From positions 11,972,866 through 12,036,865 of the forward strand of contig CM037587.1 in assembly GCA_021018995.1 (NCBI GenBank): a stretch of DNA of 64,000 nucleotides, read 5' to 3'. Origin of the DNA: Chloranthus sessilifolius. Its lineage: Eukaryota; Streptophyta; Magnoliopsida; Chloranthales; Chloranthaceae. Positions 22,201 through 64,000 of the stretch are shown in pieces; position 1 is the stretch's first letter; each line of letters opens with the position of its first letter. Made by a program: the position numbers and the translations under genes. The notes below the pieces were generated by a model. That model searched no databases, was not told the DNA's origin, and saw only the letters and a list, made by a program, of their open reading frames with translations.

Positions 22201-22526
22201 CCGTGTGCGCAATTTTAGAATCACCCGCACGATTTCTTCAGAAACCCAAAACTGAAAGTTCTGAGCAATTCACACGTGCGATTTTAAAAATTGCCCGTGC
22301 GATTTTTAGCGTATATAAGGGCTAGAAGCCCTATTCTTTCATTTTCACATGAAATCAAGCCGAGAAATCGAGGGTTTTTCTTCTTCTCCGCGAGAACTCG
22401 CTTTTTTTCTCCGGATTCGTGTAAATCCTTCATCCAAAAGGTGTTCCTCTTGATTTTTCTTCGCGCCAAAAGTAAGTTTTCCATTTAAATTCAAAATATT
22501 CCTTTCACAAATTTGAGATTTCCACA
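22201..22526 (+). promoter_or_regulatory. C1 aORF promoter/leader: GYRCGATTT array, TATA, candidate intron
   Basis: Four motif copies lie at 22210 (CAATTT variant), 22230, 22279 and 22300, in pairs 20 and 21 bp apart, with forms such as CCCGCACGATTT and CCCGTGCGATTT. The same motif recurs in the C1 LTR (25506-25690). A TATA box, TATATAAG, is at 22312-22319. A consensus-like splice donor AAAA|GTAAGT lies about 55 bp before the aORF ATG, so a short 5' UTR intron is possible. This arrangement suggests independent transcription of the aORF. Confidence 0.65.
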
Positions 22527-23704
22527 ATGGGTCTGAAGAAGAAGCTTGCTTCTAAGAACCCTACTTCGAAGGTCAAAGTTTCAACAAGGAAACCGAAGAT
22601 CGACTTGTCTCTGATTGACCGTGATCAACCCTCTGAATGGTGGGAGATGAAATGGTTTGCAAGTGAATGGTCGTTCAATAACGACCTATTCAAAGGGCAA
22701 TAAGTAACTAAATGGACCCTCGATTACCTCACTGCAGCTAGGATGAGATCATTCCTCGAGCCTTTTTACGATTATTATTATCCTCAATTGGTAAAATTGT
22801 TTTACTAATATGAGCGAGGATGGTTTGGACTTGTGCACCACGATTGACGGGTGGTTATTTCAATTCGACCTCTATCATATGGCCGCCGCCATGGGATCTT
22901 CACCAAATTTCACCCCTGGTAAAGGTCTGCAACCCCCAAACAGTGTCGAAGTACCCTATCATTACATTCTAGCCAACATGACCCATGGTGAACACGGGTC
23001 AAGACAATCAGTTAGAAGAGCCCAATTACCTGCCCATATGTGGCCATTAGATATAATTTTTAGGAAGAATTTATACCCTCTGCGCCACGAACGTGAGAGA
23101 AATGATATCTTCCTTCAAGCCTTGTACTACACCTATGATGAGAAATGGTTCAACGAGCTAGCTGTGGTGTGGGATGGGATAATCTATGCCAGGAACCATG
23201 CGCGAGACGTTCACAAGAAGCCTTTGATGACATTACCATACGCGACTCGTATGATCGAGATGTATGAGGACCGAGAGGAAGATGAGGAATATGAGGTTCC
23301 CCAAAATGAACCACAGTACACTGATAACACCAAGAAATATAGAATGGATGATTTAAAACAAACCTACGTCGGGTTAAATGCAAGTGTCCAACACCGCCAA
23401 GGCCAAGAGGTGGCGAGGTGTGCTCAGCAACAGCAGGAGCAGACGCAGTCGAGCAGGTAACTCAACACCCAGTGCCCCCTCCACCACAAGTTCCAACCCA
23501 ATAGCCACCCACCCAGCATGGTGATGTGCCCATTGGGCTGATTTTGCTCGACAGATGGACTTGCATGAGCAGATGCTCAGGCAGATGTCGCACTAGCAGA
23601 ACTTCCATGAAGCTATGCTTATGGATGTGATGCACTACATGTTCTCGGGCTTCGCCTTTGAGCGCATCGATAGAGCACGGGTATACACACCGGGTTGCGC
23701 CTAG
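22527..23704 (+). pseudogene. C1 aORF: extra protein between pol and 3' LTR
   Basis: Function unknown. It starts MGLKKKLASKNP with a basic, linker-like N-terminus. The conserved core then begins SEWWEMKWFASEWSFNNDLF and continues FLEPFYDYYYPQLVKLFY. From 22810 it has a 216-codon open frame with DLYHMAAAMGSS, THGEHGSRQSVRRAQLPAHMW, PLRHERERNDI, EKWFNEL and LPYATRMIEMYED. A Gln-rich stretch follows, and after a frameshift near 23450 a Met/His/Gln-rich coiled-coil-like tail (DLHEQMLRQM, AMLMDVMHYM). Two stops and a frameshift separate the first 94 codons from the rest. Homologues occupy the same place in C2 (28730-30061), C3 (52855-53830) and C4 (62059-63519). From memory it resembles the family called 'putative plant transposon protein' (Pfam PF20167, to be verified). 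There is no signal peptide or membrane span, so an envelope role is unlikely. Confidence 0.75.
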
Positions 23705-24775
23705 TTCTTGAGTAGATGGGATTGCTAGAGATGGTGTAGACCAGGCAGGCGATGGGGTGGATTAGTGGGAGATTTTGTAACTTGGATATCATGGTGTTGT
23801 TGGTGAGATTTTTGTTAATTTTTGAGAAACTAAGGAAAATTTTGAATTTTGAACAGCTTACGTATATACACTGTTGATAACTTGTTGTCATTATATATAG
23901 ATGGTTTATATTTTAATTTTTAGATGTGAATGGGTTAAATGTGAATGGCTATTATGTATGGATGAATTAGATGTTAATGTTTTGATTTAAATGGTTTGAG
24001 TGTGAAATGGTTATAAAATGGAGTAGTTTCAATTGTATCAGTGGTGATTAGTTTTCATGTGTACTTTGATAATGGTTTAAATGGTTAAATTAGTTGTGGA
24101 TAATTTCTCGTACATATGCCTTCTGTGATGCAGGGTGAATGGATTGTTAAAATTCATTGTGAAAATAATGGTGTGGATTTATGGTTGAATGGTGGCATGG
24201 TTGCCATGCTTGGATTGTTATATGCATGAATGGTTTATTTGTGGCTATCCATGTAAGTGTAGTTGTGGATAATTTTGTCACAACTATGCCTTGTCATGCT
24301 GGGTGAATGGATTGTTCAAATTAGTTATGAATATTTTGGCATTAGTTGTAGATAGTTTGGGTGTAATGGCTTAGTTGTAGATATTTTTTATTTCTGTAGG
24401 TGAATGGATTGTTCAAATTAGTTATGGATATTTTGGCATTAGTTGTAGATAGTTTGGGTGTAATGGCTTAGTTGTAGATATTTTTGATTTCTGCAGGTGT
24501 ATGTCCTGTTATGATAGTTAACAAGGACTCTGATTGGTACTAGATGTACCTATATATATATACGGTTATGAAAATGTGTGAGTGTGTTTCTTTTCTTTAT
24601 GGTCTAAATGCATGATTGGATGATTGGACTGAAATCCAAAGTTTGTGTAAGATTTGAAATGGCGTTAAAGATTTTGAAATGACTAATCCTGACTTTGATG
24701 AGTGACCCTAGGACTTCCGGCCCATAGGACACGTAAGGAATTTTTGAGTATGAAAATTTCTTAAGGAGGAGAGAA
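23705..24775 (+). repeat. C1 3' noncoding region with a 97-bp tandem duplication
   Basis: AT-rich and noncoding. Two nearly identical 97-bp units lie at 24303-24399 and 24400-24496 (GTGAATGGATTGTTCAAATT at each start). Looser related copies (TTAGTTGTGGATAATTT, GGGTGAATGGATTG) lie upstream from about 24090. It ends with the polypurine tract AAGGAGGAGAGAA (24763-24775) next to the LTR. Confidence 0.75.
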
Positions 24776-26000
24776 TGTAATATCCCAAAAATTTTGGACC
24801 CAAAAGCGCCCGACTATGTGTACATTTTAATTATAGTACACGTTACATGTGTAAGCAATTACGGATATGTTTAGAATACATTCGGGCTTCATTTGAATTT
24901 TTTTGGAAAGACTAATAACTTATTTGTGTGTGCTAGCTTCACACTGAGCCACAACTCCATTTGGATGGGACTTAACACACAAGTTAGGTGTGTGGGCTTC
25001 ACACCGAAGCAAACCCATTTACATAAGTGGCTTCTCACGTAAGCCTCAATGGTTCTTGCATTGCATGGAATTTGAGAGAAGAAAGAGAGAGCGTCGAACT
25101 TGCATGCGATTGCGACCCGGGAAGAGCGAGAGAATTCCACATCTATAAAACTCTCTTTTGGTTGTTTTTGAAACCCCGATGTCCGAAGTCTCTCACAATC
25201 GCCTTCGCGGGTAAATCTTTAGTCCATTGTATACGTTTAGAAGATTGGGTCTTCGTATCTGTCTTCGTTAGCAATCGCGAGAAGGTGGGTTTCAAATCAT
25301 TGGACGTGTGTGACACGAGAGCGTCGAAATTCCGAAATCGATTCTCGTACGCATTACACACGTGAGTTTGGAAGATAAGACACGTAAACATTGATGGTTT
25401 TGATTTCCTAAAGACAAAGAATCAAGGTTTTTGGATGTAAGAAGACTGTAAAAGAAAAAAATGAAAAGCAAGTTGGGTGTGCAAAATCACCCAAAATCGT
25501 GCATGTGATTTGCCTTCAGATATAAAGGGGAAACATTGCCGAGAAAATTGTGCGCGCAAAATGCACACGATTTTTAGGCAAAAAACCATATTGGGTTTTG
25601 TCGCCCGCACGATTTGGGAAGTACCAGGTGGAAATTTCTTGCGCTATTTGGACATCGATCGCGCAATTTGGAAATCGGGTGCACGATTTTCCTTATTTAG
25701 CTTATTTTGAAGTTTTCCTTGGAAAACTTCTATGACTTCGATAATTATGCTTCCTTAGGCATGTATAAATGATTTTTAAATGCCTTAAAATATAGGTTAT
25801 GATTTGGAACCGTCTATAAGGATCTTCGCGTTATTCTAGCATGACTTCCGAACCGAGGTAGGGGAAAACTCAATACCAATTGCATTTTGTCTTGATTTTC
25901 ATGGATATATATATATGATATGATCGTCAAACTCAGAAATTTTGAATCCATTTACGAATAAGAATTATGAACTTGAAATTGTATCTAATCTTTGAATTAT
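24776..26000 (+). repeat. C1 3' LTR, left part (interrupted by C2)
   Basis: It starts TGTAATATCCC directly after the purine tract. A TATAAAAC box lies near 25144. Motif copies (GCACACGATTT, CCGCACGATTT, GCGCAATTT, GTGCACGATTT) lie at 25568, 25610, 25644, 25664 and 25684. C2 inserted after 26000, and the last five bases (ATTAT) are repeated at 40414-40418. The LTR resumes at 40414. Confidence 0.85.
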
Positions 26001-28046
26001 TGTGATGACTCGACTTTTCCAATCCTTAAAGGTATAGGAAAGGTTGGTTCATCAACTTATTGATTTCTCAATAAGCCGTAACAAATAGAAGCCGACAGCA
26101 TAAGCATAGGTCAAAACAGAGGCATAGCAAAATAAGCAAGAACAAAAGCTCATTCAAAACCATATATCACCCTAAGGAACCAGGAAGAACCACAGGTGAT
26201 GGCCAATCCAACACCTAAAATAGTGGTTCCTCAAGTGATATCCAAAAGACAAACAATGGCCTAGGGCCCAATATTCAATTAATTCGGAACCAAAAGTACC
26301 AAAAGTATAAATCCAGATCAAGGAAAGAATTCCTCCGCTGGGATCTCTAATTCCTCCTCCGGAATATAGTCGAAATCCTCCATATCTAGATCTTCAGATC
26401 CCCAGTCAGTCTCAGCACCTGTGACGTATAGTCGGGGTGAGCTAACATCGAAGCTCAATAGAGAAAATTTATCCATTTGCATTTTATCATAAGGGTTTTT
26501 CGAAGACAAAAATCGGATCAGATATGGTTTTCAAAAGATGCATTGATGTCTAAATTTCATAACTAAAATCGAAAGCCAAAAGATGATTCAATAAATCTGA
26601 TGTTCTGATGCTTTCGAATTCTGAATTAACATGCTTCTTGTCTTAAATTTATAACTTAATTATATCTCCAAAATTACCTATAGTATGAGAGCGAGAGTAT
26701 TACCGATGGGAAACCCTACTGACCATCGTCATTCATGAACCCTATTTCGGTTGGTAGGATCTAGGGTTTCGTTCGTATGTGCCTCAAATCGAATGCAAAT
26801 GCTAAACATATCATATTTTATGTAATTAATACATTTTAGATTTTTCGGAGTTCTAATTCAAAGTTCACATTCAAAAATGAAGTTAGGAAGGTCAAATTTC
26901 TGAGTTCTTATATCAAAGTTTCGGAGTTCTTAATCATGCTAGGTTTATCAAAATTTAGATTTCAATGCTTGCAACAAATAACCAAAACTTATAATATAAT
27001 GCAATTTAGGTTTAGGATTCTGCTACCTCGACTCAATTCGATCCTAAAATAAGCAAAGCAGTCCTCACCATGGACTCCTATCCCAAAACCTACAATAATT
27101 AACACTCAAGGTGTTAATTATGTCAAAAAAATCAACCAAAAGACTCCCCAAAATCATTTCCAAAAGTTTTCAAAAATAAAAAAAAAAACAGGGCAAAATT
27201 CAACCCTCGAATTTAACTCGATGGTCGAATTAAAATCCGATCCTCGAATTCCAATAATGGCATCCGACCTTAAAAGTTCAAATTCGACCCTCGAATTTCT
27301 CCAGGTCTGTGGTTTTCGAATTTGTTCTTCTTTCTTGCAATTTATTCCATCCAAACATCAAAGCTGGTTGTCTAATCTATACTATACATATATTTAACCA
27401 AATTAAAGGAGTGTAAAGGCCTACCTCTTGAAGTTATATCCCTTGGCTCCCGTTGCACCAAGTCTACGTACCGGAACAAACCACCAAGTTCAATTGGACC
27501 CCAAAGATCAGTCCAACCCAAACCTTGCTTTTAGAGCAAAGGCTAGCCTAGCTCATTCGCCCCACTGTCCACTTTCCCTTAGTCTTCTCTCTTAATATCT
27601 TAAACAGATCTAAAGATGATCACAAGGCTTATCGATGGTTGAGATGGGGAGAGGGATTCTCAATCATAAGGGATCTAAGATCAAAGCAAGGAGGCAAATG
27701 TTTGCAAAGAGTGCAAGGGTTCCGGATTCTCACGTGAGGAAGAAGATGCAACTTCTCCTTCACACCTCCTCTTTATAATACAAAATTGCAAACCACATAA
27801 TATCTAGATTTTTAAATTACAATCCTATCTACTTAACTTGCAAATATTTCCGGCGTCTAGGGCATATACTAGACTTAGCGTATAAGTTACCAAAAACATA
27901 ACTTCCACAAGTTCGAAACAAAAATCCTTTGACCACATCTCTCATCATACTCTAAGCTACCCAAATAATCAGACTTATCTCGTAAATTTTTTGGGCACGC
28001 ATATCGAGGTAATCGAAATCCGATCTAAAATATCAGGGATATTACA
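26001..28046 (-). repeat. C2 3' LTR
   Basis: The minus strand begins TGTAATATCCCTGATATTTTAG at 28046 and ends ..CGAGTCATCACA at 26001. The preceding purine tract AAGGAGGGGAGAA is at 28059-28047. A TATA-like TATTATAAAG lies near 27778. The AATTCGA/TCGAATT array lies at 27195-27300. The TGAGCT hairpin is at 26457-26438 and the second hairpin at 26229-26187. Confidence 0.95.
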
Positions 28047-28729: not shown

Positions 28730-30061
28730 CTAATCCTCCCCCTCAGCAGCCTGACCAGCCGAAGCCTGGTCATCGTCCCCAACATCAGCATCATCATCAT
28801 CTATGTCGTCGTCACCCACATCTGTAGGGACACTGGGACCTGCTCCCGATATAGAAGGGTGGTGAACTGACGTCCGGAGATCTGCCATGTAAGTCGAATA
28901 GTCGTCAGGAAAAGCGTGCTGCATCAGGTATGTGAGCACCCCCCGGTGTATATGCAACTCGCGGCTCATAGAGGTGGTATGCTGAGTTAGCTCTTGAATC
29001 TGCTGACCCATAGAAGTCATCTGGCGAAGAAACTCTGACAGGGTGAGGACATCAGGCTGTTGGGGCTGGTCCGTCTCAGGTGCGACAGGCTCTGCTGCTG
29101 CATGGTCGGCATCCTCCTCTTCATCCTCATCAAGGACCACCGCACCCTTGGGAGCCTTTATCAATCGACTGTAGGTCCTACCCCAATTGACTAAGTTATA
29201 AAGTTTGAGATTGGCGGTGGATCATGGCTCAGTAGGGAGAATCTCATAGGCTGGTCCCGCTCGATAATTCTCAATCATAACCGAAATCAAGCGAGCATAT
29301 GGGATGCCCTTTGCTGGTGTCTTCACCTTCTTGCCCATTTTCTCATGAGCTTTAAGGATGCCCTTAAAGACAATTTTCGGGGCATTGAACCAACGCTCTT
29401 TAAATGCCGCAAACAAAATCTGTTGAATGGGGCCTCGGCGTTCCGATCTATGCCCAAAAGGGCAAAGGGTGGCCTTAAAAATCACATCTAAAATCCACAT
29501 GGTCTAGGGCATTTGAGAACGGGTGATCGCTTTGCCGGACCCATGTTTACCTTGGGTCATTTGTGCCATGACCTCCTGAACCGGGACAGATTTAGGGTGG
29601 GGAGGAGCCAAACTCATAGTCGGTGAGTGTTTGGTCGGGCATCGCATTGCCATGGCAATGTCATCAAGGTCAAAGGCGTATTCCCGACCATCAATGGTGG
29701 TGTAGATTTTCTTGCCGTCCTCCCTTCGTATACGCTAATAGAATAAGCGTACCAAGCGAGGATAGAAATGTGTGTGTAATGGTTGCAACAGAGAGGTTAA
29801 TTGGACTTTTTCAAGGTAATCAAAAGCCGACTGGGTTGAGGCTTGCTGATCGAAAAGTTCAGGATCGAAGATCCATTCCACAGCAAACCCCTTAATACCC
29901 CAAAATGCACTGGGATGCTCACGGATTTGTAGGGGTAGGGGTGTCTGACCCGGCTGTGAAGGTGGCTGAACCGGCTGTGAAGGTTGGCTTGCGGACCCAA
30001 CCTTAGAAGCTGGCCTCTTTGAGGTAGGGATTCAAACAGGGGTCTATTTCTTAGGCCCCAT
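28730..30061 (-). pseudogene. C2 aORF: single frame with five stops
   Basis: Function unknown; homologous to the aORFs of C1, C3 and C4. ATG at 30061 gives MGPKK. The frame runs 444 codons to 28730 without any frameshift and is broken only by stops at about codons 6, 10, 109, 186 and 280 (30044, 30032, 29735, 29504, 29222). Layout: a Gln/Pro-rich linker; then the core SAFWGIKGFAVEWIF, YPRLVRLFY, DLDDIAMAMR, MTQGKHGSGKAITR, TMWILDVIFK, FGHRSERR, KERWFNA and IPYARLISVMIENY; then an acidic stretch (DEDEEEDAD) and a predicted coiled coil (LSEFLRQMTSMGQQIQEL) ending LTYLMQHAF; then an Asp-rich tail. It lies in sense orientation between chromodomain and LTR. Two stops read as CAG-to-TAG candidates. 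Confidence 0.8.
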
Positions 30062-30941
30062 ACTAAGATGCCAGAAAAAAAACAACACAAAAATGCAGAA
30101 ATTTAAACCACAATCCACAAAAAGTAGAGGGTTTTACCTCTTGAAATGCCCCCAAATCGGTTTCCTATGCAAGCAATCCGAGTCCCTTATGCAATCTGAG
30201 GGGAAACCCTCTTGAAATCCAGCCAAAAATTGTAAGAGAAGCCACAAAAATCCCAAAACCCTCAAAAACCCAAACCCTAAGCTCTGTTTGCAATGCCCGA
30301 AATGCCAAAACCCCAAAACAGAACCCCACACTTAACCCGACAAATTCGACCCTCGAATTCAAATTCGATGGTCAAATTTCAATTCAACCCTCGAATTCCT
30401 TAAAAGTTTGTCAGGCCTGAAATTTGGCCTAAACTGCCTAACTACTATTCATTCAAAATCAACCATTTGAATTTTCGACCCTCGATATTCTCGAATTCTG
30501 TTTTCCTTCACAAATTCAAAAATTTTATGTGTTGGTCCATTGCCTTGGGCCGAATTGACTTCCTTTGAGCCCTTTTTGCTGTTTAAACATGGAATTCGAC
30601 TATTCGACTATACCGCAAGTACAAAACCATAATATAGCTTATAAAATGAACCAAAGGAATTAAAATTGGGCCCGATTAATTCATAGATTCATTAGCGAGA
30701 GTAACCACCCACATGCAAATGGAAATTTCTGAAATATATTTATCGTTATAAAGTAGGAAATATCGAAGTTATCACACATAAATTGCTACAGGCATTAAAA
30801 TATTACATTGTACCTCAAAAATTTTATAGTCTAGGATAAGTGCATCGAAAATTCTAAAGTTTCATACATCCAATATTCAATTTCTCCAAATATTCAAGCA
30901 AAAAGGCTCGAAAATTGCTCTCGAAGCTCAGCTTCTCGCTC
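30062..30941 (-). promoter_or_regulatory. C2 aORF upstream region: AATTCGA-NNN-TCGAATT array and leader
   Basis: Motif copies on the plus strand include AATTCGACCCTCGAATT at 30344, AATTCGATGGTCAAATTT and AATTCAACCCTCGAATT, with right arms at 30353, 30372 and 30391 (19 bp apart). A further ACCCTCGATATTCTCGAATT lies near 30480. The same motif forms the array in the C2 LTRs. Close to the ATG, the minus strand has a donor-like AAGAG|GTAAAACCC (about 30136) and an acceptor-like TTTCTGGCATCTTAG directly before TATGGGG, consistent with a 5' UTR intron of about 70 nt. Confidence 0.6.
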
Positions 30942-38307: not shown

Positions 38308-40413
38308 TGTGACGACCTGACTTTTCCAATCCCTAAAGGTATAGGAAAGGCCGATTCATCAACTTATTGATTTCTCAATAAGCCATAACAAATAGAAGCC
38401 GGCAGCATAAGTATAGGTCAAAACAGAGGCATAGCAAAATAAGAAAGAACAAAAGCTCATTCAAAATCATATATCACCCTGAGGAACCAAGAAGAACCAC
38501 CAGTGATGGCCAATCCAACACCTAAAATAGTGGTTCCTAATGATGGTTCCTCAAGTGATATCCAAAAGACAAATCAAAGGCCTAGGGCCCAATATTCAAT
38601 TAATTCGGAACCAAAAGTACCAAAAGTATAAATCTAGATCAAGGAAAGAATTCCTCCGCTGGGATCTCCAATTCCTCCTTAGGAATATAGTCGGAATCCT
38701 CCAGATCCAGATCTTCAGATCCCAAGTCAGTCTCAGCACCTGTGACGTATAGTCGGGGTGAGTTAACATCGAAGCTCAATAGAGGAAATTTATCCATTTG
38801 CATTTTATCATAAGGGTTTTTCAAAGACAAAAATTGGATCAGATATGGTTTTCAAAAGATACATTGATGTCTAAATTTCAGTACTAAAATCAAAAGCCAT
38901 AAGATGATTCAATAAATCTGATGTTCTGATGCTTTCAAATTCTGAATTAGCATGCTTCTTGTCTTAAATTTATAACTTAATTATATCTCCCAAATTACCT
39001 ATAGCATGAGAGCGAGAGTATTACCGATGGGAAACCCTACTGACCATCGTCGTTCATGAACCCTATTTCGGAAAGAGTAACAAGCCCCTACGTAATGAGG
39101 GAAACTTGTGCCAAACTGAATTACCGTCAACACGGTTGGTAGGATCTAGGGTTTCATTCGTATGTGCCTCAAATCGAATGCAAATGCTATACATATCATA
39201 TTTTATGTAATTAATACATTTCGAATTTTTCGGAGTTCTAATTCAAAGTTCACATTCGAAAATGAAGTTCGGAAGGTCAAATTTTTGAGTTCTTATATCA
39301 AAGTTTCGGAGTTCTTAATCATGCCAGGTTTATCAAAATTTAGATTTCAATGCTTGCAACAAATAACCAAAACTTATAATATAATGCAATTTAGGTTTAG
39401 GATTCCCCTACCTCAACTCAATTCAATCCAAAAATAAGCAAAGCAGTCCTCACCATGGACTCTTATCTCAAAACCTACAATAATTAACACCCAAGGTCTT
39501 AATTATGTCAAAAAAATCAACCAAAAGACTCCCCAAAACCATTTCCAAAAGTTTTCAAAAAAAAAAAAAAAAAACAGGGCAAAATTCGACCCTCGAATTC
39601 CAAAAATTGCATTAGGCCTTAAAAGTTCAAATTCGACCTTCAATTGAAATTCAACCATCGAATTTCTCCAGGTCTGTGGTTTTCGAATTTGTTTTTCTTT
39701 CTTGCAATTTATTCCATCCAAACATCAAAGTTGTTTGTCTAATCTATACTAAACATATATTTAACCAAATTAAAGGAGTGTAAAGGCCTACCTCTTGAAG
39801 TTAGATCCCTTGGCTCCCGTTGCACCAAGTCTACGTACCAGAACAAACCACCAAGTTCAATTGGACCCCAAAGATCAGTCCAACCCAAACCTTGCTTTTA
39901 GAGCAAAGGCTAGCCCAGCTCATTTGCCACACCGTCCACTCTCCCCTAGTCTTCTCTCTTAATATCTTAAACATATCTAAAGATGATCAAAAGGCTTATC
40001 GATGGTTGAGATGGGGAGAGAGATTCCCAATCATAAGGGATCTAAGATCAAAGCAAGGAGGCAAAGGTTTGCAAAGAGTGCAAGGGTTCCGGTTTCTCAC
40101 GTGAGGAAGAAGATGCAACTTCTCCTTCACACCTCCTCTTTATAATACAAAATTGCAAACCACATAATATCTAGATTTTTAAATTACAATCCTATCTACT
40201 TAACTTGCAACTATTTCCGGCGTTAAGCGCATATACTAGACTTAGCATATAAGTTATCAAAAATAAAACTTCCACAAGTTCGAAACAAAAATCCTTTGAC
40301 CAAATCTCTCATCATACCCTAAGCTACCCAAATAATCAGACTTATCTCGTAAATTTTTTGGGCACGCATATCGAGGTAATCGAAATCTGATCTAAAATAT
40401 CAGGGATATTACA
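38308..40413 (-). repeat. C2 5' LTR
   Basis: The minus strand starts TGTAATATCCC at 40413 and ends ..GTCGTCACA at 38308. It is closely similar to 26001-28046 but has an extra segment at 39072-39135 and fewer motif copies (39593 and 39658). The TGAGCT hairpin at 38759-38778 has one arm mutated (GAGTTA). Confidence 0.95.
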
Positions 40414-46000: not shown

Positions 46001-46139
46001 TTTCGCCAATGATTAAATTGGATAGTCAACTGTGAAAAAATAGATGTTAGAGAACATGTTTTGTGCCAATATTTGGCACATTTGATCTTTACATTATAGC
46101 CTTCAAATCAAACGACATAGATGGTGTTTGAGAGAAAGC

Positions 46140-48983
46140 TGTAATAACCCGAAAAATTAGACCCGAACTCAACTGACCTCAAGTGTGTGGTCAACATGAA
46201 AATCGATGTCATCTTAGATTTTTATATAATAATAAATATTTAAATAATATTAGGATAACTTTGTGCTGACAGATTAAGGTTTAAATGTGTGTTTGAGCCT
46301 TTAGTGTGAAAGCCGTGCACCGACGCACTGTGTGCCGCTCAACACCGAAGCCAAGTCAAAGATAAGAGGATAGAATTTTAGCTAAAATATCAAGGATATT
46401 TTGGGGCTTTCGTTTGGTTATAGGGAGGTGGGTTGCTTTGAGGCTAAGAAAGGCCTTTTGAAATTGAGAAGAAGAGAGAGTCGAGCCCCACTTCTTAGAA
46501 AGCCGTCACCCATGAAACCTTGGGGGATTTTGATCGTGTAATCGCCGCGATCTCCGCAACCTTTGCAAAGCACATGACACCGATCAACACTTGAATCCCG
46601 CCTTTGGTGAATTTCGACCGTTCAAACCCTTTTTTCTTTAGAAACCCCATTTTCAAGAAGCGTTCCACCTCACAATCGTTAACCGAGCATTGAGAAGGTT
46701 GAGATCGATGCGTGGATCATTGACGACTTCATCTTGAATACGTGGTGATCAATCGTTGTGAAATCGCCGTAGAGATGCGGAAGTTTCGTTTCGAAACCCT
46801 TTTGGACAACGATTCTTAAAGGCGCGAAATCGATCGAAGAAAGGTTAGTTTTTCTTTGATTTTAATGGTTTAGATTGTAGAATAAATCCTTATTTTAGTT
46901 TAGTGTGTATGCGTGTGTAATTGGATTAAGATCGTAGAAGATTTGGATAAAAATAGATTAAAAATGACAAAACCATATGGCTGTGCATTTCTAAAGGTTT
47001 TAATCGATCAATTAGGTGATTGATCGATCAAAATTGGATATTGATCGATCAACTTAGGTGGTTGATCGATCAAATTTGGTATTGATCGATCAATCATCTA
47101 GATTAATCGATCAAATTGTATATACAATAATAAAAATAGCAAGTTTGTTGCTGGAAGTTCATTCCCGACAGCATTGATCGATCAATTTGATAATCGATCA
47201 ATATGATCAAGGTAAGTGTCGATCAATGTGATGTATTGATCGATCAATTTGACTGTGCCAACACTGCTTCAGTGTTTTGGCCATAACTTTTTACTTCGAA
47301 CTTTGATTGATGCGATTCTTACGGAATTGAAAAGAGGACAACTAAATCTACAACTTTTATGAATTAACTAACTAATGAGTAAATTTTTTTGATGATCAAA
47401 ATTGAGCTGGAAGTTTGGCCAAGTTCTAAGTTAGCACGTTTTGACTGAAGTATCGATATAGCTTTGATATTTTGGCCATAACGCTTTGTCCCGAACTCCG
47501 ATTGACGTGATTCTTGATGCCTTGGAAAGAGTATGATAAGATCTAACTCTTTTATGAATTAATCAAATCTTTAATCAAATATTTTGAGGGACAAAATAAA
47601 GTGGGAAGTTGGGTCATGTTTCGAGTCAACACGAAATTATCCATTTCCGTCTCGGTTTTGAGAAAACACTTAAATACGTCAATATTATTAATAATTAGGA
47701 TTAATTTTTATACATCATCATGTGTGTGATGTAGACTATGAGTGGAGGCTGTGAATAAGAACTTTTGGATTGCTTTGGAACGGCGTTGAATTTGCTTAGA
47801 AAGATCTGTTAAGGTAGGGGAAATTCAACCTAAAATGTATTTGACTATGGTTTCATGATTCTTTCATATTTGTATCCTGATTTCTGTTTTAAAAAGCATG
47901 TTTGCATATCGATAAAGCTCTGTCATCTCTGATTCCTCCATTCTGATTTCTGTATGCTGAAACATGTTCCTGATTTCTGCTATCTGAATCTTGAGGTTAT
48001 ATGTGTGTATGTGATTTAAGGATTTAATCAGATGATCCCCACCGACTCGACGGTATATCCGTGTCCTGACACAATCGTGCATCTGCTTTGATAATCCCTT
48101 TGCACAATTGCACTCCATAGATGAGCCATTGTTGCACTCTAAATAAATTGTTCATATGAACGACAATTGGTTGGGGTTTCCTATCGGCATATTCCTGATT
48201 ACTCCGTGCTATATAGTCACGGGAGTTTCTTAAGTTAGAAATATTCACATTTTAAGTCACCAAAGATTTATTTATGCATAACATTTGTTCTTGTTTGTTT
48301 GAAAAACTCAGTACATGTCATCTGACTTATCCTGTCTGCATATTCTGATTTGATTTTCTGCTTTGAGATACTATCTGCAAATCATGTCTTATATTTTCAG
48401 TATAATTTTAGTTGATATTCTTCTACTGAGCTTAGATGTAGCTCACCCTGTTTTCTATAACATTAATAGGTTCTGAGGCTAGAGCTCCGACAGAGCGAAC
48501 GACTACCCTGATCAGAGACTGAGGTTGAGGAGGAGAATACCAATACCCCTGCTGACGAGCACCACCCGTAGCTAGGGTATTTGATTAGACAAGATATTTT
48601 GGGATCTGTATATGTTTTGGATTATTGTGGTTCTGGTAGCCACGATTTTATACTTAAAATTTTGTAGATACTTTATTTTCTTTTGTGTACATCTTATAGG
48701 AACCACTACTTGGAACCATTGTTTTTGTGTGACGGATGCCCATCACCAGTGGTTCTTCTTGGTTCCTTTTCGAGGATGTATTTTTTTTTTTTTTTTATAT
48801 ATATACATTGTTAAATTTTTTTCTTATTTAAAGCCATTTATGATGACTCGATATGCCACTATTGGACAATGTCTGCTCTGATTTCTGCTAAATGAGTAGA
48901 TACTCTGTGATTTGTCCTGGGGATCATCCAGAGTATGATCCTGATGGCACGGATTTCTGGGCATAAAAATCCGGGCTATCACA
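46140..48983 (+). repeat. C3 5' LTR
   Basis: TGTAATAACCC...GGGCTATCACA, 2,844 bp. It contains the phased TTGATCGATCAA array (47000-47250, in a GGTTAGTTTT-led transcribed segment), the TGAGCT hairpin (48427-48445) and the second hairpin (about 48711-48756). The frame at 48612-48881, which looks membrane-like, is part of this LTR and not a gene. Confidence 0.95.
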
Positions 48984-51763: not shown

Positions 51764-52854
51764 GGACGATAATTCCTCCCAATTGGAAGATTATGATAAC
51801 CTTAGTTTGGAGGACGTTGAAATTATGATAGGGACTTCTAAATTATATGGCTTCCTGCAGGTAGACTGCCAATCTGCAGATTATAGATGTGCGCACGTAT
51901 GAATGGTGGACGGCCTCTTGATGTGTCTTCTTTACCCACATGTTGCTACTTAGGGAGACGTGCTCGTCTGGTCACTGGTTCGGCTATGTGGAAGTCAAAT
52001 ATAATGAGGTGTGTTAGATTACGTATGAGTGTACAGTGCTCATGTGTGTAGGGTGTGGACCATTGGTGTGAACTTACACACCTATGTGGGGTGTGTATGC
52101 TTTACATACTAGAGGTTAGAAGTTTAAAGGCTTGGCTAGAGATGGGGATTATCTCTTTTGCTTTAACTCTTGCATTTATGTTGAGTGGTGGAATTTAAGA
52201 AGAAAGAGAATGAGATTTGTTCAACCATTGGAACCCTGGAGCTTGTCGAGCTCGTGGGCCGAGAAATCAGCCGACCCAAGGTAAGATTTTAAATTCTAAC
52301 CCATTATGCGAGAGGTAATTTTTTTGGGATTTTAAATTATAACCCATTATTGCTTTATGTACGTGGCAATTACAATTCCATACAGTTGGAGTTGTCTAGA
52401 TAGCATATACTGATACCCTATACGTGGTGAATTAGGGACTGAGTAATGCCTCCATTAATGAGGTGTTTAAAGAAACAGCTTGACTATAATGCTTGATCGA
52501 TTAATTTGGTGAATTGATCGATCAATTATGCATTTGATCGATCAAATAAGAAGGTTGATCGATCAAACCAATTTATAATAAGTTCTGTGAAAAAAGGACT
52601 GCCTGATCGATCAAATTGAGCATTGATCGATCAATTTTATTGATTTAAGTTATATTTTTGGTTTTTATTTCTCACTCGCACGATTAAGATCTTCAATCGT
52701 TCAAGAGAGTTTGATTCCTTTGCGTTCAAGGGATATTTTCGGCTTCGGACCTTCTTGCATTGATTCCTTGGATCGCATTTTGCTCGGTTATTGTGGTAAA
52801 CCCTAACTTTTCCTTATTTAGGAGATTTTTTGTGCATTTTGTATATTTTAAACT
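51764..52854 (+). promoter_or_regulatory. C3 aORF upstream region: LTR-like start, TTGATCGATCAA array, leader
   Basis: It opens with GGACGATAATTCCTCCCAATTGGAAGA-TTATGATAACC (51764-51800), a decayed copy of the polypurine tract/LTR-start module. The region to about 52300 has LTR-like content (ACACACCTATGTGGGGTGTGTATG). Palindrome centres lie at 52497, 52518, 52538, 52559, 52607 and 52627 (21, 20, 21 and 20 bp within groups). The leader (52680-52854) is homologous to that of C4, including TCAAGAGAGTTT and a donor-like GTGGTAAACCCTAAC about 60 bp before the ATG. Confidence 0.65.
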
Positions 52855-53830
52855 ATGAGACCGCGAATGAAGAATCAGTCGCGTAAAATCCCTACATTTC
52901 AAGCTCGTACATCGGTGCCAACCGTGGAATCGGTCGTACAACCCTTTGTGTAACCCGTGACACCAATCGAACAAGATGTGCCACCCGTTCAAAACCCACA
53001 ACCACCACTAATTCAACAAGAACTTCCAAAAGAGTGGTGGGCTTCTAAAACATTGTTGCCTGAATTTGCTTTCAACTCTACGCTATTCGAGGATTGGCTC
53101 GAAATAGAATGGGCGATAGACTATATTGCTAAGCTAGGGTTGAAAACATTGCATGAGTCATTTTATGTCCATTTTTGTCCTCGTATAATGAGGCTCTTTT
53201 ATCAACATCTTTGCCGGGGTGACAACCATCACCAATTGGTCACCAAAATTGACGATTTTGACTATAAATTTAACCAATTTTATGTCGCCGCCGCTTTACT
53301 GTGTTCTTCATGGTATGTGGAGACTTGTTGTTACCACCATATGTCAAAGATGTTCCATACCATGATAGACTTGTGGTCAGTGTAGCTCAGGTCAAGCTCT
53401 TACTGGGCCCAACTCCCTGATAGACTATGGATGCTTGATACTTTTATCAAGTGTGCCATAACCCCATTTTTGCATAAGTCCGCGAGATCAATGACAAAGA
53501 TTTACTGTTTGAGAAGCAGAAGACTACTTCAAAGAAAGAGCTGCCATATGCTCAATTGATAACAAGAATGGTCGAGCAGTATATCGCATTGAGAGAGGAC
53601 TATAGCCTGGCTCCTGGCGAACCTCTCGATTGACCACCAACATTAACATTTTCAAGCCCAAGGACTGGACCAAGAGCTATAATCTATTGGTCAAGAGGTT
53701 ACCTGAGGAGGGGATTATACCACCAGCTCCAGTTGAGGAGGTGCCTGACGGGCAAGCACCAGATGATGGAGGGTGCACAACCTGACGTTGCACTTGAGGG
53801 GGATGCATTTGATGTCCCTTTAACCAAACT
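52855..53830 (+). pseudogene. C3 aORF remnant
   Basis: It starts MRPRMKNQSRKIPTFQARTS; one stop (GTG TAA) precedes VTPIEQDVPPVQNPQPP. The core has KEWWASKTLLPEFAFNSTLF, LFYQHLCRGDNHHQLVTKID and FYVAAALLCSS. From about 53340 frameshifts and a deletion break it, but LPDRLWMLDTFIKCAITPFLHKS, LPYAQLITRMVEQYIALRE and a Pro/Glu-rich C-terminal stretch remain recognisable to about 53830. It is closest to the C4 copy. It is retained while pol has been lost. The predicted coiled coil is not seen here. Confidence 0.75.
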
Positions 53831-54160: not shown

Positions 54161-57055
54161 TGTAATAACCCGAAAAATTTGACCCGAACTCGACTGACCT
54201 CGAGTGTGTGGTCGACACGAAAACCGATGTCATCTTAGATTTTTATATAATAATAAATATTTAAATAATATTATGATAACTTTGTGCGGACAGATTAAGG
54301 TTTAAATGTGTGTTTGAGCTTTTAGTGTGAAAGCCGTGCATCGACGCACCGTGTGCCGTTCAACACCGAAGCCAAGTCTAAGATAAGAGGATAGAATTTT
54401 AGCTAAAATATCAAGGATATTTTGGGGCTTTTGTTTGGTTATAGGGAGGTGGGTTGCTTTGAGGCTAAGAAGGGCCTTTTGAAATTGAGAAGAAGAGAGA
54501 GCCGAGCCCCACTTCTTAGAAAGCCGTCACCCGTGAAACCTTGGGGGATTTTGATCGTGTAATTGCCGCGATCTCCACAACCTTTGCAAAGTACATGACG
54601 CCGATCAACGCTTGAATCCTGCCTTTGGTTTATTTCGACCATTCAAACCCCTTTTTCTTTAGAAATCCCATTTTCAAGAAGCGTTCCACCTCACGATCGT
54701 TAACTGAGCATTGAGAAGGTTGAGATCGATGCGTGGATCATTAACGACTTCATCTTGAATACGTGGTGACCAATCGTTGTGAAATGGCTGTAGAGATCCG
54801 GAAGTTTCGTTTCGAAATCCTTTTGGGCAACGATTCTTAAAGGCGCGAAATTGATCGAAGAAAGGTTAGTTTTTCTTTGATTTTAATGGTTTAGACTGTA
54901 GAATAAATCCTTGTTTTAGTTTAGTGTGTATGTGTGTGTGATTGGATGAAGATCGTAGAAGATTTGGATAAAAATAGATTAAAACTGACAAAACCTTATG
55001 GCTGTGCATTTCTAAAGGTTTTAATCGATCAATTAGGTGATTGATCGATCAAAATTGGGTATTGATCGATCAACTTAGGTGGTTGATCAATCAAATTTGG
55101 TATTGATCAATCAATCATCCAGATTGATCGATCAAATTGTATATACAATAATAAAAACAACAAGTTTGTTGCTGGAAGTTCATTCCCGACAGCATTGATC
55201 GATCAATTTGAAGATTGATCGATCAATGTGATATGTTGATCGATCAATGGTGAAATTGATCGATCAATGTGGAATTGATCGATCAATGTGATGTGTTGAT
55301 CGATCAATTTGACTATGTCGACACTGCATCAGTGTTTTGGCCATAACTGTTTACTCCGAGCTCCGATTGATGCGATTCTTACGGCATTGGAAAGAGGACA
55401 ACTAGATCTACAACTTTTATGAATTAACTAACTGATGAGTAAATTATTTTGATGATCAAAATTAAGCTGAAAGTTTGTCCAAGTTCTAAGTTATCACGTT
55501 TTGACTGAAGTATCGATATAGCTTCGATATTTTGGCCATAACTCTTTGTCCCGACCTCCGATTGACGTGATTCTTGATGCCTTGGAAAGAGTATGACGAG
55601 ATCTAACTCTTTTAGGAATTAACTAAATCTTTAATCAAAAGTTTTGAGGGTCAAAATAAAGTGGAAAGTTGGGTCAAGTTTCGAGTCAACACGAAATTAT
55701 CCATTTCTGCCTCGGTTTTGAGAAAACACTTAAATACGTCAATATTATTAATAATTAGGATTAATTTTTATACATCATCATGTGTGTGATGTAGACTATG
55801 AGTGGAGGCCGTGGATAAGAACTTTTGGATTGTTTTGGAACGGCGTTGGATTTTCTTAGAAAGATCTGTTAAGGTAGGGGAAATTCAACCTAAAATGTAT
55901 TTGACTATGATTTCATGATGCTTTCGTATTTGTATCCTGATTTCTGTTTTAAAAAAGCATGTTTGCATATCGATAAAGCTCTGTCACCTCTGATTCCTCC
56001 ATTCTGATTTCTGTATGCTGAAACATGTTCCTGATTTCTGCTATCTGATTCTTGAGGTTATATGTGTGTATGTAATTTAAAGATTTAATCAAATGATCCC
56101 CACCGACTCGGCGGTATATCCGTGTCCTGGCACAATCGTATATCTGCTTTGATAATCCCTTTGCACAATTTCACTCCATAGATGAGGCATTGTTGCACTC
56201 TAAATAAATTGTTGATATGAACGACGATTGGTTGGGGTTTCCTATCGGCATATTCCTAATTACTCCGTGCTATATAGTCACGGGAGTTTCTTAAGTTAGA
56301 AATATTCACATTTTAAGTCACCAAAGATATATTTATGCATAACATCTGTTCTTGTTTGTTTGAAAAACTCAGTACATGCCATCTGATTTATCCTGTTTGC
56401 ATATTCTAATTTGATTTTTTGCTTTGAGATACTATCTGCAAATCATGTCTTACATTTTTAGTACAATTTTAGTTGAGATTCTTCTACTGAGCTTAGATGT
56501 AGCTCACCCTATTTTCTATAACATTAATAGGTTCTGAGGCTAGAGCTCCAAGACCTTTGAGCGAACTCGACTACCCGGCGATCCAGGATTTGAGGTTGAG
56601 GAGGAGAATACCAATACCCCTGCTGACGAGCACAACCCGTAGCTAGGATATTTGATTAGATAAGATATTTTGGGATCTGTATATGCTTTGGATTATTGTG
56701 GTTCTGGTGGCCACGATTTTATACTTAAAGCTTTGTAGATACTTTATTTTCTTTTGTGTACATCTTATAGGAACCACTACTTGGAACCATTGTTTTTGTG
56801 TGACGGATGTCCATCACCAGTGGTTTTTTTTTTATTCCTTTTTGAGGATGTATTTTCTTTTGTTTTTATATATATGTATTGCTAAATTATTTTCCTTATT
56901 TAAAGCCATTTATGATGACTCGATCTGCCACTACTGGACAGTGTCTGCTCTGATTTCTGTTAAACGAGTAGACACTCTGTGATTTGTCCTGGGGATCATC
57001 CAGAGCATGATCCTGATGGCACGGATTTTTGGGCGCAAAAATTCGGGCTATCACA
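54161..57055 (+). repeat. C3 3' LTR
   Basis: TGTAATAACCC...CGGGCTATCACA, 2,895 bp, very similar to 46140-48983. The main difference is in the motif array: centres at 55199, 55219, 55240, 55260, 55279 and 55300 occupy a block where the 5' LTR has fewer or degenerate copies. The TGAGCT hairpin is at 56488-56506. Confidence 0.95.
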
Positions 57056-57150
57056 GTAGCGGTATTGATCTTTCCATTATGATACTGTGGGAGCCATTAC
57101 CTGCTACACAGTTTGACACTCATTGATTGATTTGTATCCGATGGTCCTAG

Positions 57151-59325: not shown

Positions 59326-61896
59326 TGTGGCAGCCTGGATTTTCGTACCCAAAAATCTATGCCATCAGGATCATGCTTTGAATGATCCCCAGGACAAATC
59401 ACCGAGTGTCTGCTCGTATAACGGAAATCAAAGAAGACACGGTCCAGTAGTGACAGATCGAGTCATTATATAAGGCATTTAAAAGAAAAAAGTAAACAAT
59501 GCATATATATGTATATATCAAAAGAATATACATCCCCAAAAAGGAACAAAAAAGAATCACTAGTGATGGACATCTATCACCCAAAACAATGGTTCCTATA
59601 GAATGTATAATAATACAAGTAAAAACATCTATAGTAATAAATACAGTAGGTGGCCACCAGGCACACAGATAATCCAAAATAAAATACAGGACCAAAAACA
59701 AAAACTAATACCCAAACTGCTAATAAAACTCATCAGCAGGAGTGTCAGTGTCCTCCTCCTCCGCCTCAACCTCCGGCTCTGGCTAATACTCGGGATCACT
59801 CTCTGTGCCAGGAGCTCTAGCCTCAGAACCTATTATATATAAACAGGGTGAGCTAACTATCTAAGCTCAATAGAAGAAATTCAGTTAAATTTGCATCTTA
59901 ATGGTAAAACATGGTTATAAAAGATATCTCAGACAGATAAGTAATTGCAGAATATAGACATAACTGGACGGATGCAGACAGATGATCAGATATGCAGAGT
60001 AATTAGAATGCAGAACTTATAAGAGCAGATAGAACCTCAGAGTTTGCAGGATGCTATGCGTACAATATTTAAATGACTTAAAATAGTATACTTAAGTAAC
60101 TCCCGTGAGTATAGCATGCGGTAGCCAGATTTGGGCCGATGGGTAATCCTGACCATCATCGTTCAATGAATAATTTCAAATATATAGCAATGCCTTATCT
60201 AAGGAGTGTAATTTTGTTGAGGAATTTCCAAAGCAGATGCACGATTGTGCCAGTCATGGATATACAACCGAGTCGGTGGGATTCGTCAGATTATTAAACT
60301 TGAAATCACATGCATACATATCATAATAACAAGAATCAGATAACTGGTAGCAGATAACGGGAATTAGATGTCATGGAACCTTCATGCATATGCATGACAT
60401 GATTGGAAAGCAAAATCAGAATATGCAGCAGAATATAGAAGCTATGAACCCATGAGATAAAAAATAAATACAAGTTCAGTTAAATTTTTCCTATCTCAGA
60501 TCAAACTTTTCTAAGCAAATCCAAAGCTTTTTAATGCGTCACGGTCTGATCCTAGACCAAAGACATAGTATACTTAGTGTCAGAGATGTCAGGACATCAA
60601 CTGGTACAGTGTCCAGTGGTGTTTTACTCATAAAACTAAAACAGCAAAAACAACGGTGATTGATCGATCAATGTCCTTGTTTGATCGATCAATCATCTAA
60701 TTTGATCGATCAATCTCCCAACTAACTGATACTAAACAAATGGAATTTGATCGAACAACTTCTTTGTTTGATCGATCAATTTTTAAATTTGATCGATCAA
60801 TTTCCCCATTGATCGATCAATCAAGTCAGACTTTAAATTTTCAAAAATACCGCCCTCTTGTTTGCACACTCATTTATATGAATTGATCGATCAATCTATC
60901 ACATTGATCGATCAATGTCCACAATGGTCGATCATTCTCACCTTTGATCAATCCCTTCACTGTGATTGATCAACCCCTCATATTGATCCATCAATTATCA
61001 AATTTGATCGATCAACCTTCAAAATTGATCGATCAAATCCCAATTTAATCGATCAATGCCTTTTGGGCATTGAACTTCCAGAAAACACACCTACTATTCC
61101 CATTAATTAAATATAAGATTTGATCGATCAAATACCTAATTTGATTGATCAATAATGACAGTTTCTATCATTAATGGCGTTCAATATTCTTGACCTATTT
61201 TCCTCTTTGACCTTTAATGATCTTAATAGACTACATACACATTTGCATCTACTCATTTATTATGCCTTAACTTCTACAATTTAACTTAATAACTCACCTC
61301 TTTAGTGTCCTTTCGGGTTCTCGGCGAATGCGATCCGAAGAGAGTTTCGGATCCGAAACGCAGAATTTGTTGCCGTCACGACTCAAAAAACCAGACGCTC
61401 GGCTCCGCTTTAACACACAAAGACATCACACATTCTCAAACTAAATATGGAGTGTTTAATTTGACCCCCCTCACACTCTATTTCAGAAAAATGCACAATC
61501 TAGGGTATTCCCAACCCTTGGTTTCACAACAGCAATACTTTAGAAATAGCTCCTATCCACAGACTCTTAGGAAGCAAGAAGAAGATGATGAAAGGTAGAT
61601 ATTCCAACCTTCTTCCTTCTCTTATAAGCTAACAAATGGAATATATAGAGATTTTTCCCATTTTCTAAAACTAAGTTCAGGTGTTAAGCGCATGTATAAT
61701 TTTTCTGGCGTATCACGCCTCATCAAGGGCTAACACGACTCGGACTTACATAAGAAGTCACACATGACTTCATTTAATTGTGGACTAATATTATTCTCAA
61801 TAATATTAATTTAAAATTTTAATTTATCTCAATTTCCTTGTTGGGCACACTTATCGAAGCAATCGAGTTCTTGTTCTGAATTTTAGGATTATTACA
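59326..61896 (-). repeat. C4 3' LTR
   Basis: The minus strand begins TGTAATAATCC at 61896, after the purine tract AAGGAGGGGATAA (61909-61897), and ends ..GGCTGCCACA at 59326; 2,571 bp. It contains the largest phased TTGATCGATCAA array (60660-61152), the TGAGCT hairpin (59849-59869) and the second hairpin (59554-59597). It is related to the C3 LTRs in its distal part. The left flank is GTATT; the other flank is off the window. Confidence 0.9.
60660..61152. repeat. Phased TTGATCGATCAA array in C4 LTR
   Basis: Centres (T of TCGA) at 60664, 60685, 60706; 60751, 60772, 60793, 60813; 60887, 60908, 60928; 61008, 61029, 61049; 61124, 61145. Steps within groups are 20 or 21 bp. About half the copies are the perfect 12-bp palindrome. 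Confidence 0.95.
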
Positions 61897-62058
61897 TTAT
61901 CCCCTCCTTAGAAATTGTATCCCCGAAAATGTTAGGAAGTCACAGACAGGTCGATGGTGTATCCTAATTCTAACTGGCAGAATAAGGCAGAAACAAGCAG
62001 TCGAATATATCATGCAAGAACAAGTATGCATGCAGAACAAAAAGTATATGGAAATAGA
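61897..62058 (-). other. C4 polypurine tract and short 3' noncoding region
   Basis: The purine tract is at 61909-61897. There is no other feature before the aORF end. Confidence 0.7.
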
Positions 62059-63519
62059 TTAATAGATTATATAGATATAATTATTAAAAGAAAAACACAT
62101 AATAGCATAGTAATTACCTGTCAGGGAGTCAGAAGGTCTGGCCTCGTCAGGTGTAGGGCTATTGGGCATAGGTGGCTCAGTGCAATAGTCGTGTAGGTCG
62201 ACGGTGTGCTGACGAGCATGAGCTATCATCGGTGTAGACGTGGTGATATAGGAGTGCTGCATCAGGAGCTCAAGCATCCGCTCATGATAGTCCAATCGTC
62301 GATGAACCTAACGATGGAACTCCTCCATCCCGTCCAGCCGCTCATGGATATGCTTGTTGCCCTCGACGACCGCTACAAGCACCGTTTCAAGGGTAACGGT
62401 GGAAGGTGTGGGTCTGCGTGATGTAGGGGCACAGGCAGGGCGGCGTGAAGTAGTAGGGGCAGGTCTAGTAGGCACCGCAGATTGAGGTGGCTAGTCAGGT
62501 TGTGCCTCTCCTGCATCAGGAGCTCTCTCTGCCGGCTCTTCTCCCTCTTCAACTGGAGGAACCTCTTCCTCCTCCGGTAATCTTTTGACCAAAAGGTTAT
62601 AACTCTTGGTCTAGTCTTTTAGTTTGAACACTTTAGTATTGTTGGTCAATCGGCTCGCTAGGAGCCATGCTATATGCCTCTCTCAGCGCGATATATTGCT
62701 CGACCATTCGTGTTATCAATCGAGCATAGGGCAGATATTTCTTTGAAGCTGCCTTCATCTTCTCAGACATCAAATCCTTAGCATTGATCATGCCATTGAG
62801 CACCAAGTCGGCAACAGAGAACCAACGGTTCTCGAAAGTTACAAACATCACCTGTTGCGCAATGTCGCTCCGTTCGGATTTGTGCAAAAAAGGGTTTAGG
62901 GCACACTTGATATAAGTATCAAGCATCCACAATCGATCAGGGAGTTGGGCTCAAGTAATGGATTGACCTAAACCATGCTGACCTTGTATCATTTTGGTAA
63001 CCATGTCATGGAGTGGGACATCCTTAATATATGGTGGCGACAGGCCACAAGTGTCAATATACACTGAAGAACACTGCAGGGCGGCTGCGACATGAAACAG
63101 GTTAAACTTATAGTCCAAACCGTCAAATTTGGTGACCAATTGATGACGGCTGTCGCCTCGACGAAGGTTTTGACAGAAAAGCCTCATGATTCTTAGGCAA
63201 AAATGATCGTGAAATGGCTCAAGAAACAGTTTCAACCCTAGCTTGGTAATGTAGTTGATGGCCCAAGTCGTTTCTGGCCGATCCTCGAATAGCGTAGAGG
63301 CGAAAACGTATTCGGGCAAAAAATTTTGGAAGCCCACCACTCGGTTGGGACTTCACGTTGAATTTGTGGTGGTTGGGGGTTTAGAACGGGTGGCATCACA
63401 GTTTCGGTGGGTGCCATGGGTGACACGACGGTTGGTGCGACTGGTTCGACGGGCGACACTGATGCACGAACCCGGGATGTCGGGATTTTGCACGATGCAT
63501 TTTTCGTTCGTGGTTCCAT
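62059..63519 (-). pseudogene. C4 aORF
   Basis: ATG at 63519 (MEPRTKNASCKIP), then a Pro/Val/Thr-rich linker and TEWWASK. After a frameshift near 63330 comes the core: FLPEYVFASTLFEDRPE, LRIMRLFCQNLRRGDS, FHVAAALQCSS, MIQGQHGLGQSIT; after one stop (TGA, 62933), AQLPDRLWMLDTYIKCAL, PFLHKSERSDIAQQ, ENRWFSVADL and LPYARLITRMVEQY. Beyond 62633, in broken frames, there follow a Pro/Glu linker and a predicted coiled coil (LETVLVAVVEGNKHIHERLDG, then RRLDYHERMLELLMQHSYI) ending near 62230. The LMQH motif at the coil end matches C2. It lies in sense orientation directly upstream of the 3' LTR. Confidence 0.78.
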
Positions 63520-64000
63520 AGCTTAAATACCCCAAAAATATACAAAAAACCCAAATGAAGAGAAAGGTTAGGTTTTATCGATCGAACCAAGCAAAATCCG
63601 AGCTAACTACGCACAGAGAGAAGCTCTAGTAGCTGGCAAACACTCTGAAATGTTGTTTGAATGCAAAGGAGCAAAAACTCTCTTGAAAGATCAATTCTTC
63701 TCACCGTGCAAATGAAAAATAAAAACTCAATCGTTACATAAAACGATAGGTTTGATAGATCAATGCTTAAATTGATCGATCAATCTTAAGTTAAAAATGC
63801 CCTAGCTCGATAATTTTGATCGATCAATGCTTAAATTGATCGATCAATCTTAAGTGAAAAATGTCCTGGCCAGACAACCTTGATTGATCAATGTCCTTAT
63901 GTTGATCGACCAAATCATAAATTTGATCGATCAATCTCAAAATTTGATTGATCAACCACTCATATTGCAGAACAAGGTTCAAACCTAATTGATCGATCAA
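63520..64000 (-). promoter_or_regulatory. C4 aORF upstream region: TTGATCGATCAA array and leader
   Basis: Centres at 63757 (variant), 63777; 63821, 63841; 63885, 63907, 63928, 63949; 63993. Steps within groups are 20-22 bp, with the array continuing off the window. The leader between array and ATG (63520-63745) is homologous to that of C3, including TCAAGAGAGTTTTTGCTCCTTTGCATTCAA-like sequence, and keeps a degenerate donor position (CGATAAAACCTAACC). Confidence 0.75.

Follow-up and report, generated by a model that had tools for sequence, protein, structure and literature searches.

The stretch of DNA analyzed here (hereafter the window: 64 kb of contig CM037587.1 of Chloranthus sessilifolius, positions 11,972,866–12,036,865) is plant-type DNA densely packed with decayed Ty3/gypsy elements, and four of these, C1 (+), C2 (−), C3 (+) and C4 (−), bear homologous extra genes (aORFs) in their 3′ part. 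The aORFs lie in the sense direction upstream of the long terminal repeat (LTR), and 3′ of pol wherever pol exists. When the C2 aORF was used as a tblastn query against the window, the aORFs of C4, C1 and C3 were matched with E values of 5e-52, 7e-46 and 5e-21, respectively, and all remaining matches had an E value of 2.2. In every one of the four elements, the LTR contains a motif array and a second array of the same class lies upstream of the aORF (Table 1), in agreement with the original prediction, which had placed paired arrays near these positions; the site counts were above expectation. Each aORF family has a motif class of its own: GYRCGATTT half-sites in C1, AATTCGANNNTCGAATT in C2, and TTGATCGATCAA in both C3 and C4. 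The prediction that the motif differs from element to element therefore holds between aORF families (three classes) but not for C3 and C4, which share one; the identity of the aORFs is 69% between C3 and C4 and 34–39% for pairs with different motifs.

With ≤1 mismatch, TTGATCGATCAA occurs at 54 positions in the 64 kb, 50 of which constitute the LTR and pre-aORF arrays of C3 and C4, and the other 4 fall in a separate LTR fragment at 19700–21290 (exact matches expected in the window: ~0.01). All 9 window matches of AATTCGANNNTCGAATT with ≤2 mismatches are in C2 (3 in the pre-aORF array, 4 in the 3′ LTR and 2 in the 5′ LTR). As for C1, 6/6 window matches of GYRCGATTT lie in the element (3 pre-aORF and 3 LTR, 2.1 expected in the window), as do 9 of the 14 matches of GYRCRATTT (5.2 expected), and the half-site counts, 4 upstream of the aORF and 5 in the LTR, were each reached by 0/200 shuffles. 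A C1-specific signal was thus retained from the original prediction in the form of a degenerate half-site, whereas the literal motif proposed there, CCCGCACGATTT, proved less clean (5/7 matches with ≤2 mismatches in C1).

The 9-mers common to each pre-aORF region and each LTR were also compared with those of 200 dinucleotide shuffles. Values for the pre-aORF region and the element's own LTR exceeded all 200 shuffles in C2, C3 and C4. The C2 pre-aORF region did not match the C3 or C4 LTRs in this comparison, and those of C3 and C4 each matched the LTRs of both elements, because both carry one motif. The C3 and C4 regions also scored high against the 19700–21290 fragment (0/200 shuffles each). 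This LTR-like fragment is abruptly joined to the C1 integrase end, has a GATCGATC-type array resembling those of C3/C4, and has no attached aORF in the window. In the window alone, where three motif classes are distributed over four elements, label shuffling pairs all of them 1 time in 12.

Table 1. Positions of aORFs, LTRs and motif arrays of C1–C4 in the window
Feature	Position	Strand	Remarks
C1 pre-aORF array	22203..22305	+	4 GYRCRATTT half-sites, then directly TATATAAG box
C1 aORF	22527..23720	+	broken; open piece 22795–23460; tblastn from C2 aORF
C1 3′ LTR, first part	24776..26000	+	remainder 40414–41411; C2 insertion splits LTR
C1 LTR array	25494..25690	+	5 GYRCRATTT half-sites
C2 3′ LTR	26001..28046	−	partner 38308–40413
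C2 3′ LTR array	27197..27297	−	4 sites
C2 aORF	28730..30061	−	5 internal stops; weak PF20167 match
C2 pre-aORF array	30343..30397	−	3 AATTCGANNNTCGAATT sites, spacing 19 bp
C2 5′ LTR array	39583..39664	−	2 sites at ≤2 mismatches, third at 3
C3 5′ LTR array	47000..47247	+	8 sites at ≤1 mismatch
C3 pre-aORF array	52493..52634	+	6 TTGATCGATCAA sites
C3 aORF	52858..53800	+	broken
C3 3′ LTR array	55021..55307	+	12 sites
C4 LTR array	60660..61152	−	15 sites at ≤1 mismatch
C4 aORF	62400..63519	−	broken; E 5e-52 to C2 aORF
C4 pre-aORF array	63752..64000	−	9 sites within window; further sites past window end (L010)

The host genome (2.17 Gb) was the source of an element survey. Protein searches with three aORF queries returned 50,491, 35,289 and 52,094 first-look candidates, which are not confirmed copies; 95, 150 and 88 matches were listed and 95, 150 and 87 candidates were scored, respectively. 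In 30 elements, an array was assigned to a class when it had at least 3 sites and ≤2/200 shuffles reached the count, the class A pattern having been widened after inspection of L043–L048. Both arrays could be classed in 20/30 elements (A, 2; B, 5; C, 13), and the class was the same in 20/20 with 0 disagreements, so the pairing extends beyond the window and the check for family members with a mismatched pair found none among these 20. In the 700 bp preceding the aORF, 24/29 C2-family loci had at least 3 AATTCGA half-sites, compared with 0–2 in the aORF body, and AATTCGA clusters were present in 8/8 LTR stretches. A closely spaced TTGATC pair was found at 6 places in the genome, in LTR arrays where examined. 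Four of the five stretches around such pairs (L005, L006, L008 and L009) each contained an aORF preceded by an array, the LTR array being located in that stretch or a neighbouring one, and in the L007 stretch no aORF was seen. All 8 C-family loci (L062–L069, L062 being the L005 element) had 10–15 pre-aORF sites and 15–23 sites downstream at the LTR position. An apparent motif switch in L013 (GCCGATAC) was rejected, since an unrelated repeat appears to have been inserted upstream and the LTR of this element keeps the C2 motif.

The aORFs are 59–93% identical within families and 30–44% between families genome-wide. Because family members were collected by their similarity to the three queries, the monophyly of the three families in the tree is expected. 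Median dN/dS, calculated from sets that take in broken copies, was 0.25 for the C family (8 sequences, 28 pairs, range 0.16–0.51) and 0.19 for the B family (27 sequences, 351 pairs, range 0.09–0.92); three open sequences per family gave 0.20 (C) and 0.22 (B). The aORFs are under purifying selection. Copies open across the whole query exist in the C2 and C3/C4 families, as do C1-family copies open across the 215-aa query piece. In six open aORFs, the N-terminus is proline-rich and basic, with +5 to +8 over 40 residues; the C-terminus of the three that belong to the C2 family is acidic (−20 to −22). The C2 aORF matched PF20167 (Transposase_32, ‘putative plant transposon protein’) at 32.9 bits (E 7e-8, 4–172 of 177) and an open C-family aORF at 17.5 bits (E 0.004), both below the curated Pfam cut-off of 45 bits, which makes the aORF a distant PF20167 relative and not a member, judging from these profile scores. 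Two aORF proteins scanned against Pfam hit nothing beyond PF20167 and weak matches, none of 5600 candidates in a protein database search with the C2 aORF reached E ≤1, and a search of viral contigs and plasmids gave no match.

The distance from the array edge to the aORF ATG is 222, 282, 223 and 233 bp in C1–C4, respectively. Of the 8 C1-family loci, 7, among them C1 of the window, have a TATA box next to the array on its aORF side, ~215–224 bp before the ATG; the eighth locus (L042), without a TATA box beside the array, appears interrupted. Visual inspection of the sequence upstream of C2-family and C3/C4-family aORFs revealed no conspicuous TATA box. TATA-like boxes are located 269–373 bp into the LTRs of C1, C2 and C4, and there is none there in C3. 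The LTR array starts ~100–160 bp past a 5′ splice-like GT, which was picked by eye, so the array may be situated past the transcription start and possibly within an intron. The sites are palindromic and mostly 19–21 bp apart (C3/C4: 20–21 bp in 35/49 intervals; C2 family: most commonly 19 bp, 34/55, 14 loci), a spacing that would suit dimers arranged on one helix face. The 20–21 bp gaps fit the helical phase but those of 44–48 and 71–75 bp do not, and the phase score of the array sites had no peak at 10.5 bp.

The motif is better conserved than its surroundings. Among the 8 C-family loci, motif columns, which were defined in one sequence and scored among the other 7, were 95.3% identical, compared with 83.8% for spacers; 4-fold sites of the family were 82.7% identical. 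The C3 and C4 LTRs align over the last kilobase and the arrays plus one 65-bp match (E 0.001) and over little else, therefore the motif outlasted most of the surrounding sequence. A methylation-decay signature at the central CpG was rejected, since only 7/25 motif mismatches were transitions there; 6/25 were C>T or G>A at two other C/G positions. Apart from the arrays, a block near the 3′ part of the LTR, TGAGCTTAG...TAGCTCACCC (~40970–41040, 48425–48460 and 59840–59875), is conserved across LTRs of different families that otherwise scarcely align.

Regarding the elements themselves, C2 is inserted in the 3′ LTR of C1, with an ATTAT duplication in the flanks, and has gag, protease, reverse transcriptase, RNase H and integrase pieces in that order (PF03732, PF08284, PF00078, PF17917 and PF17921; the rve match of 21.4 bits is under the cut-off). 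This is the domain order of Tekay-like chromovirus Ty3/gypsy elements. A conserved tail after the integrase SH3_Tf2-1 domain is common to C1, C2, L005 and L010 (69% over 78 aa between C1 and C2); it may be a chromodomain, and no Pfam chromodomain match was found in it. An insertion at 31190–33580, containing two repeats that are 73% alike (at 32456 and 32886), separates the C2 integrase end from this tail. C3 (48986–54160) gave no match to the C2 gag/pol pieces at E 1e-3 and retains LTRs with arrays, a primer site and the aORF; it is perhaps a pol-less relative. Its interior has a 22-bp tandem array (50743–50933), and up to three successive polypurine-tract and LTR-start-like sequences were recognized by eye before its 3′ LTR (53846–54160).

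We favour, with moderate confidence, the reading that the arrays are predicted binding sites for a sequence-specific, probably dimeric regulator encoded by the element's own aORF. A dedicated internal promoter, lying between pol and the aORF, would drive aORF transcription, and the aORF protein would bind the array at that promoter, giving feedback, as well as the matching array in the LTRs of its own family, so as to activate or de-silence that family only. The aORF protein is the simplest candidate reader because the motif class tracks the aORF family, because both the motif and the aORF are conserved, and because neither recent copying nor chance explains the sharing of a motif by the two sites. 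The original prediction suggested that a trans-acting factor reads the two sites and named the aORF product as its candidate; this is supported by the 20/20 pairing, the conservation of motif over spacer and the purifying selection. DNA binding by the aORF protein, its choice of these motifs and the sign of its effect are what we infer. In a wider form, to which we give about an even chance, each family of an abundant group of plant LTR retrotransposons would have a private address code: its aORF protein would be an activator or anti-silencer recognizing only its own array at the LTR and the aORF promoter, protein and array would co-diversify, families would be switched on independently inside a single genome, and pol-less relatives such as C3 would keep or exploit the code.

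Several observations weigh against this reading. Elements of one family are related by descent and do not count as independent events, so the pairing amounts to three agreements at family level, each seen again in diverged copies. Ten of the 30 elements were not classable at both sites, having a weak, interrupted or missing site: L012, L013, L029 and L040 have a class B LTR with a weak, variant or apparently interrupted upstream array, L045 is class A upstream only, L048 is class A at the LTR only, and neither site was classed in L042, L044, L046 and L047, in several of which the LTR array is outside the examined stretch or an insertion apparently intervenes. Within the C2 family, the upstream variant AAATCGA of L029 and L037 (9/11 and 5/8 sites) is not mirrored in their LTRs (1/7 and 0/4 sites), so that the co-variation of motif and aORF put forward for checking appears at class level across families but breaks down at this fine scale. 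C1 fails the 9-mer test (21/200 shuffles reach its value), because its motif is degenerate, and two non-partner pairs scored high, C3 pre-aORF with the C1 LTR (1/200 shuffles) and C1 pre-aORF with the 19700–21290 LTR (0/200 shuffles), the latter being unexplained. In addition, the predicted fold of the open C1 aORF piece was poor (mean pLDDT 45.2), and the single match in a PDB profile search, at E 0.39, was not credible.

Host transcription factors, different for each family, could instead read the arrays and co-regulate the LTR and the aORF promoter. The paired sites are silent on the identity of the reader, and DNA binding by the aORF protein is a prediction; however, the motif class shifts with the aORF family, and host factors would have to have been recruited three times over, at two sites each time, so we regard host readers as unlikely. 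The aORF protein could also be a repressor that acts at the arrays to limit copy number or exclude rival copies. Autorepression would fit the same anatomy and the sign of the effect is not readable from sequence, whereas the acidic C-terminus of the C2-family proteins leans weakly toward activation, and we consider repression improbable.

An action of the arrays in RNA, where the palindromes would form hairpins for packaging, dimerization or export, seems very improbable to us: the LTR array does follow the TATA-like box in C1, C2 and C4, and the pre-aORF array is inside the full-length transcript, but the regular spacing of ~2 DNA turns and the C1-family TATA box directly after the aORF array point to DNA. 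As for the origin of the arrays, all blastn matches below E 0.005 between pre-aORF regions and LTRs were inside the arrays. Spacers of the C3 5′ and 3′ LTR arrays match at 7.1/8 bases (0/500 shuffles), and those of the C3 and C4 LTRs are somewhat alike (6/500). Between the pre-aORF and LTR arrays, spacers are marginally alike in C3 (23/500 shuffles reach the value) and not alike in C4 (458/500). These results contradict the original prediction that the LTR array was copied upstream of the aORF, as similarity is confined to the arrays and the spacers are mostly unrelated. An origin of the aORF promoter in a duplicated or converted LTR, with the common motif as a leftover, would account for the shared class in each element and for the marginal C3 spacers, but with no similarity outside the arrays, unrelated C4 spacers and a motif better conserved than its spacers, this part of the prediction is disfavoured as highly improbable.

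The predicted aORF regulator would work like the Tas protein of foamy (spuma) viruses, which acts on the LTR and an internal promoter (PMC4929722). In both cases, the gene belongs to the 3′ portion of the LTR element, and its product is thought to read control sites at the LTR and at an internal promoter; for the aORF, both this reading and the internal promoter are predictions. Sites of one kind at both places were found here in all 20 classable elements of the 30. Unlike the Tas system, the present one is in plant Ty3/gypsy elements, has regular palindrome arrays, and has a motif varying by family within one genome. The aORF product is possibly a VANC-like anti-silencer, and the parallel drawn in the original prediction stands as a likeness in working, since in VANDAL elements, too, a short motif specific to the family is densely arrayed in non-coding regions (PMC5735166, PMC10398659). 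It does not extend to the type of element, an LTR retrotransposon with LTRs, reverse transcriptase and integrase and not a MULE DNA transposon; moreover, the sites are palindromic and placed at two defined positions, the LTR and the putative aORF promoter, in contrast to the single-orientation arrays described for VANDAL (PMC5735166, PMC10398659). In layout, Tas appears the closer match than VANC. We class the aORF system as neither, for it belongs to plant LTR retrotransposons and the likeness lies in layout and array logic.

Extra open reading frames (ORFs) between pol and the 3′ LTR are also present in Retand, whose antisense aORFs have a TRP28 domain along with family-specific tandem repeats and a proposed regulatory role (PMC11963269), and in Athila, whose sense 3′ aORF has similarity to PF20167 (PMC11728184) and hence to the Pfam family related to the present aORFs. 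In the portions of these reports available, no motif is described as common to the LTR and the promoter of the aORF (PMC11963269, PMC11728184), and the host element here, unlike theirs, is chromovirus-like. Transposable element-derived domain proteins of host genes are likewise tied to a motif in promoters of genes whose activity these proteins maintain; those are encoded by host genes, with a Pfam domain other than PF20167. Titles and abstract openings of the open-licence literature searched reported no matched LTR/aORF arrays, and earlier reports regard the role of extra ORFs in plant LTR retrotransposons as unknown (PMC7264820, PMC11963269). Because the arrays are matched and private, they offer a concrete and cheap binding test for each aORF, in which crossing the three families with the three motifs supplies the specificity controls. 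If the favoured reading is true, the logic known from VANC anti-silencing and from retroviral transactivators would also operate in plant LTR retrotransposons and would help to account for how such families grow abundant yet stay distinct.

Two further arrays were observed in the window. A foldback element (45284–46147 and 44719–44914) has 294-bp inverted arms with 22-bp-spaced CAATCGATGGCGAT arrays, and such an array is also found directly outside it; 15/15 window matches with ≤2 mismatches are in 44722–45980. It is an additional element type with its own CpG-containing array. Outside the aORF elements, a 47-bp tandem repeat at 9309–9486 has palindromic GCATGCATAG-type cores.

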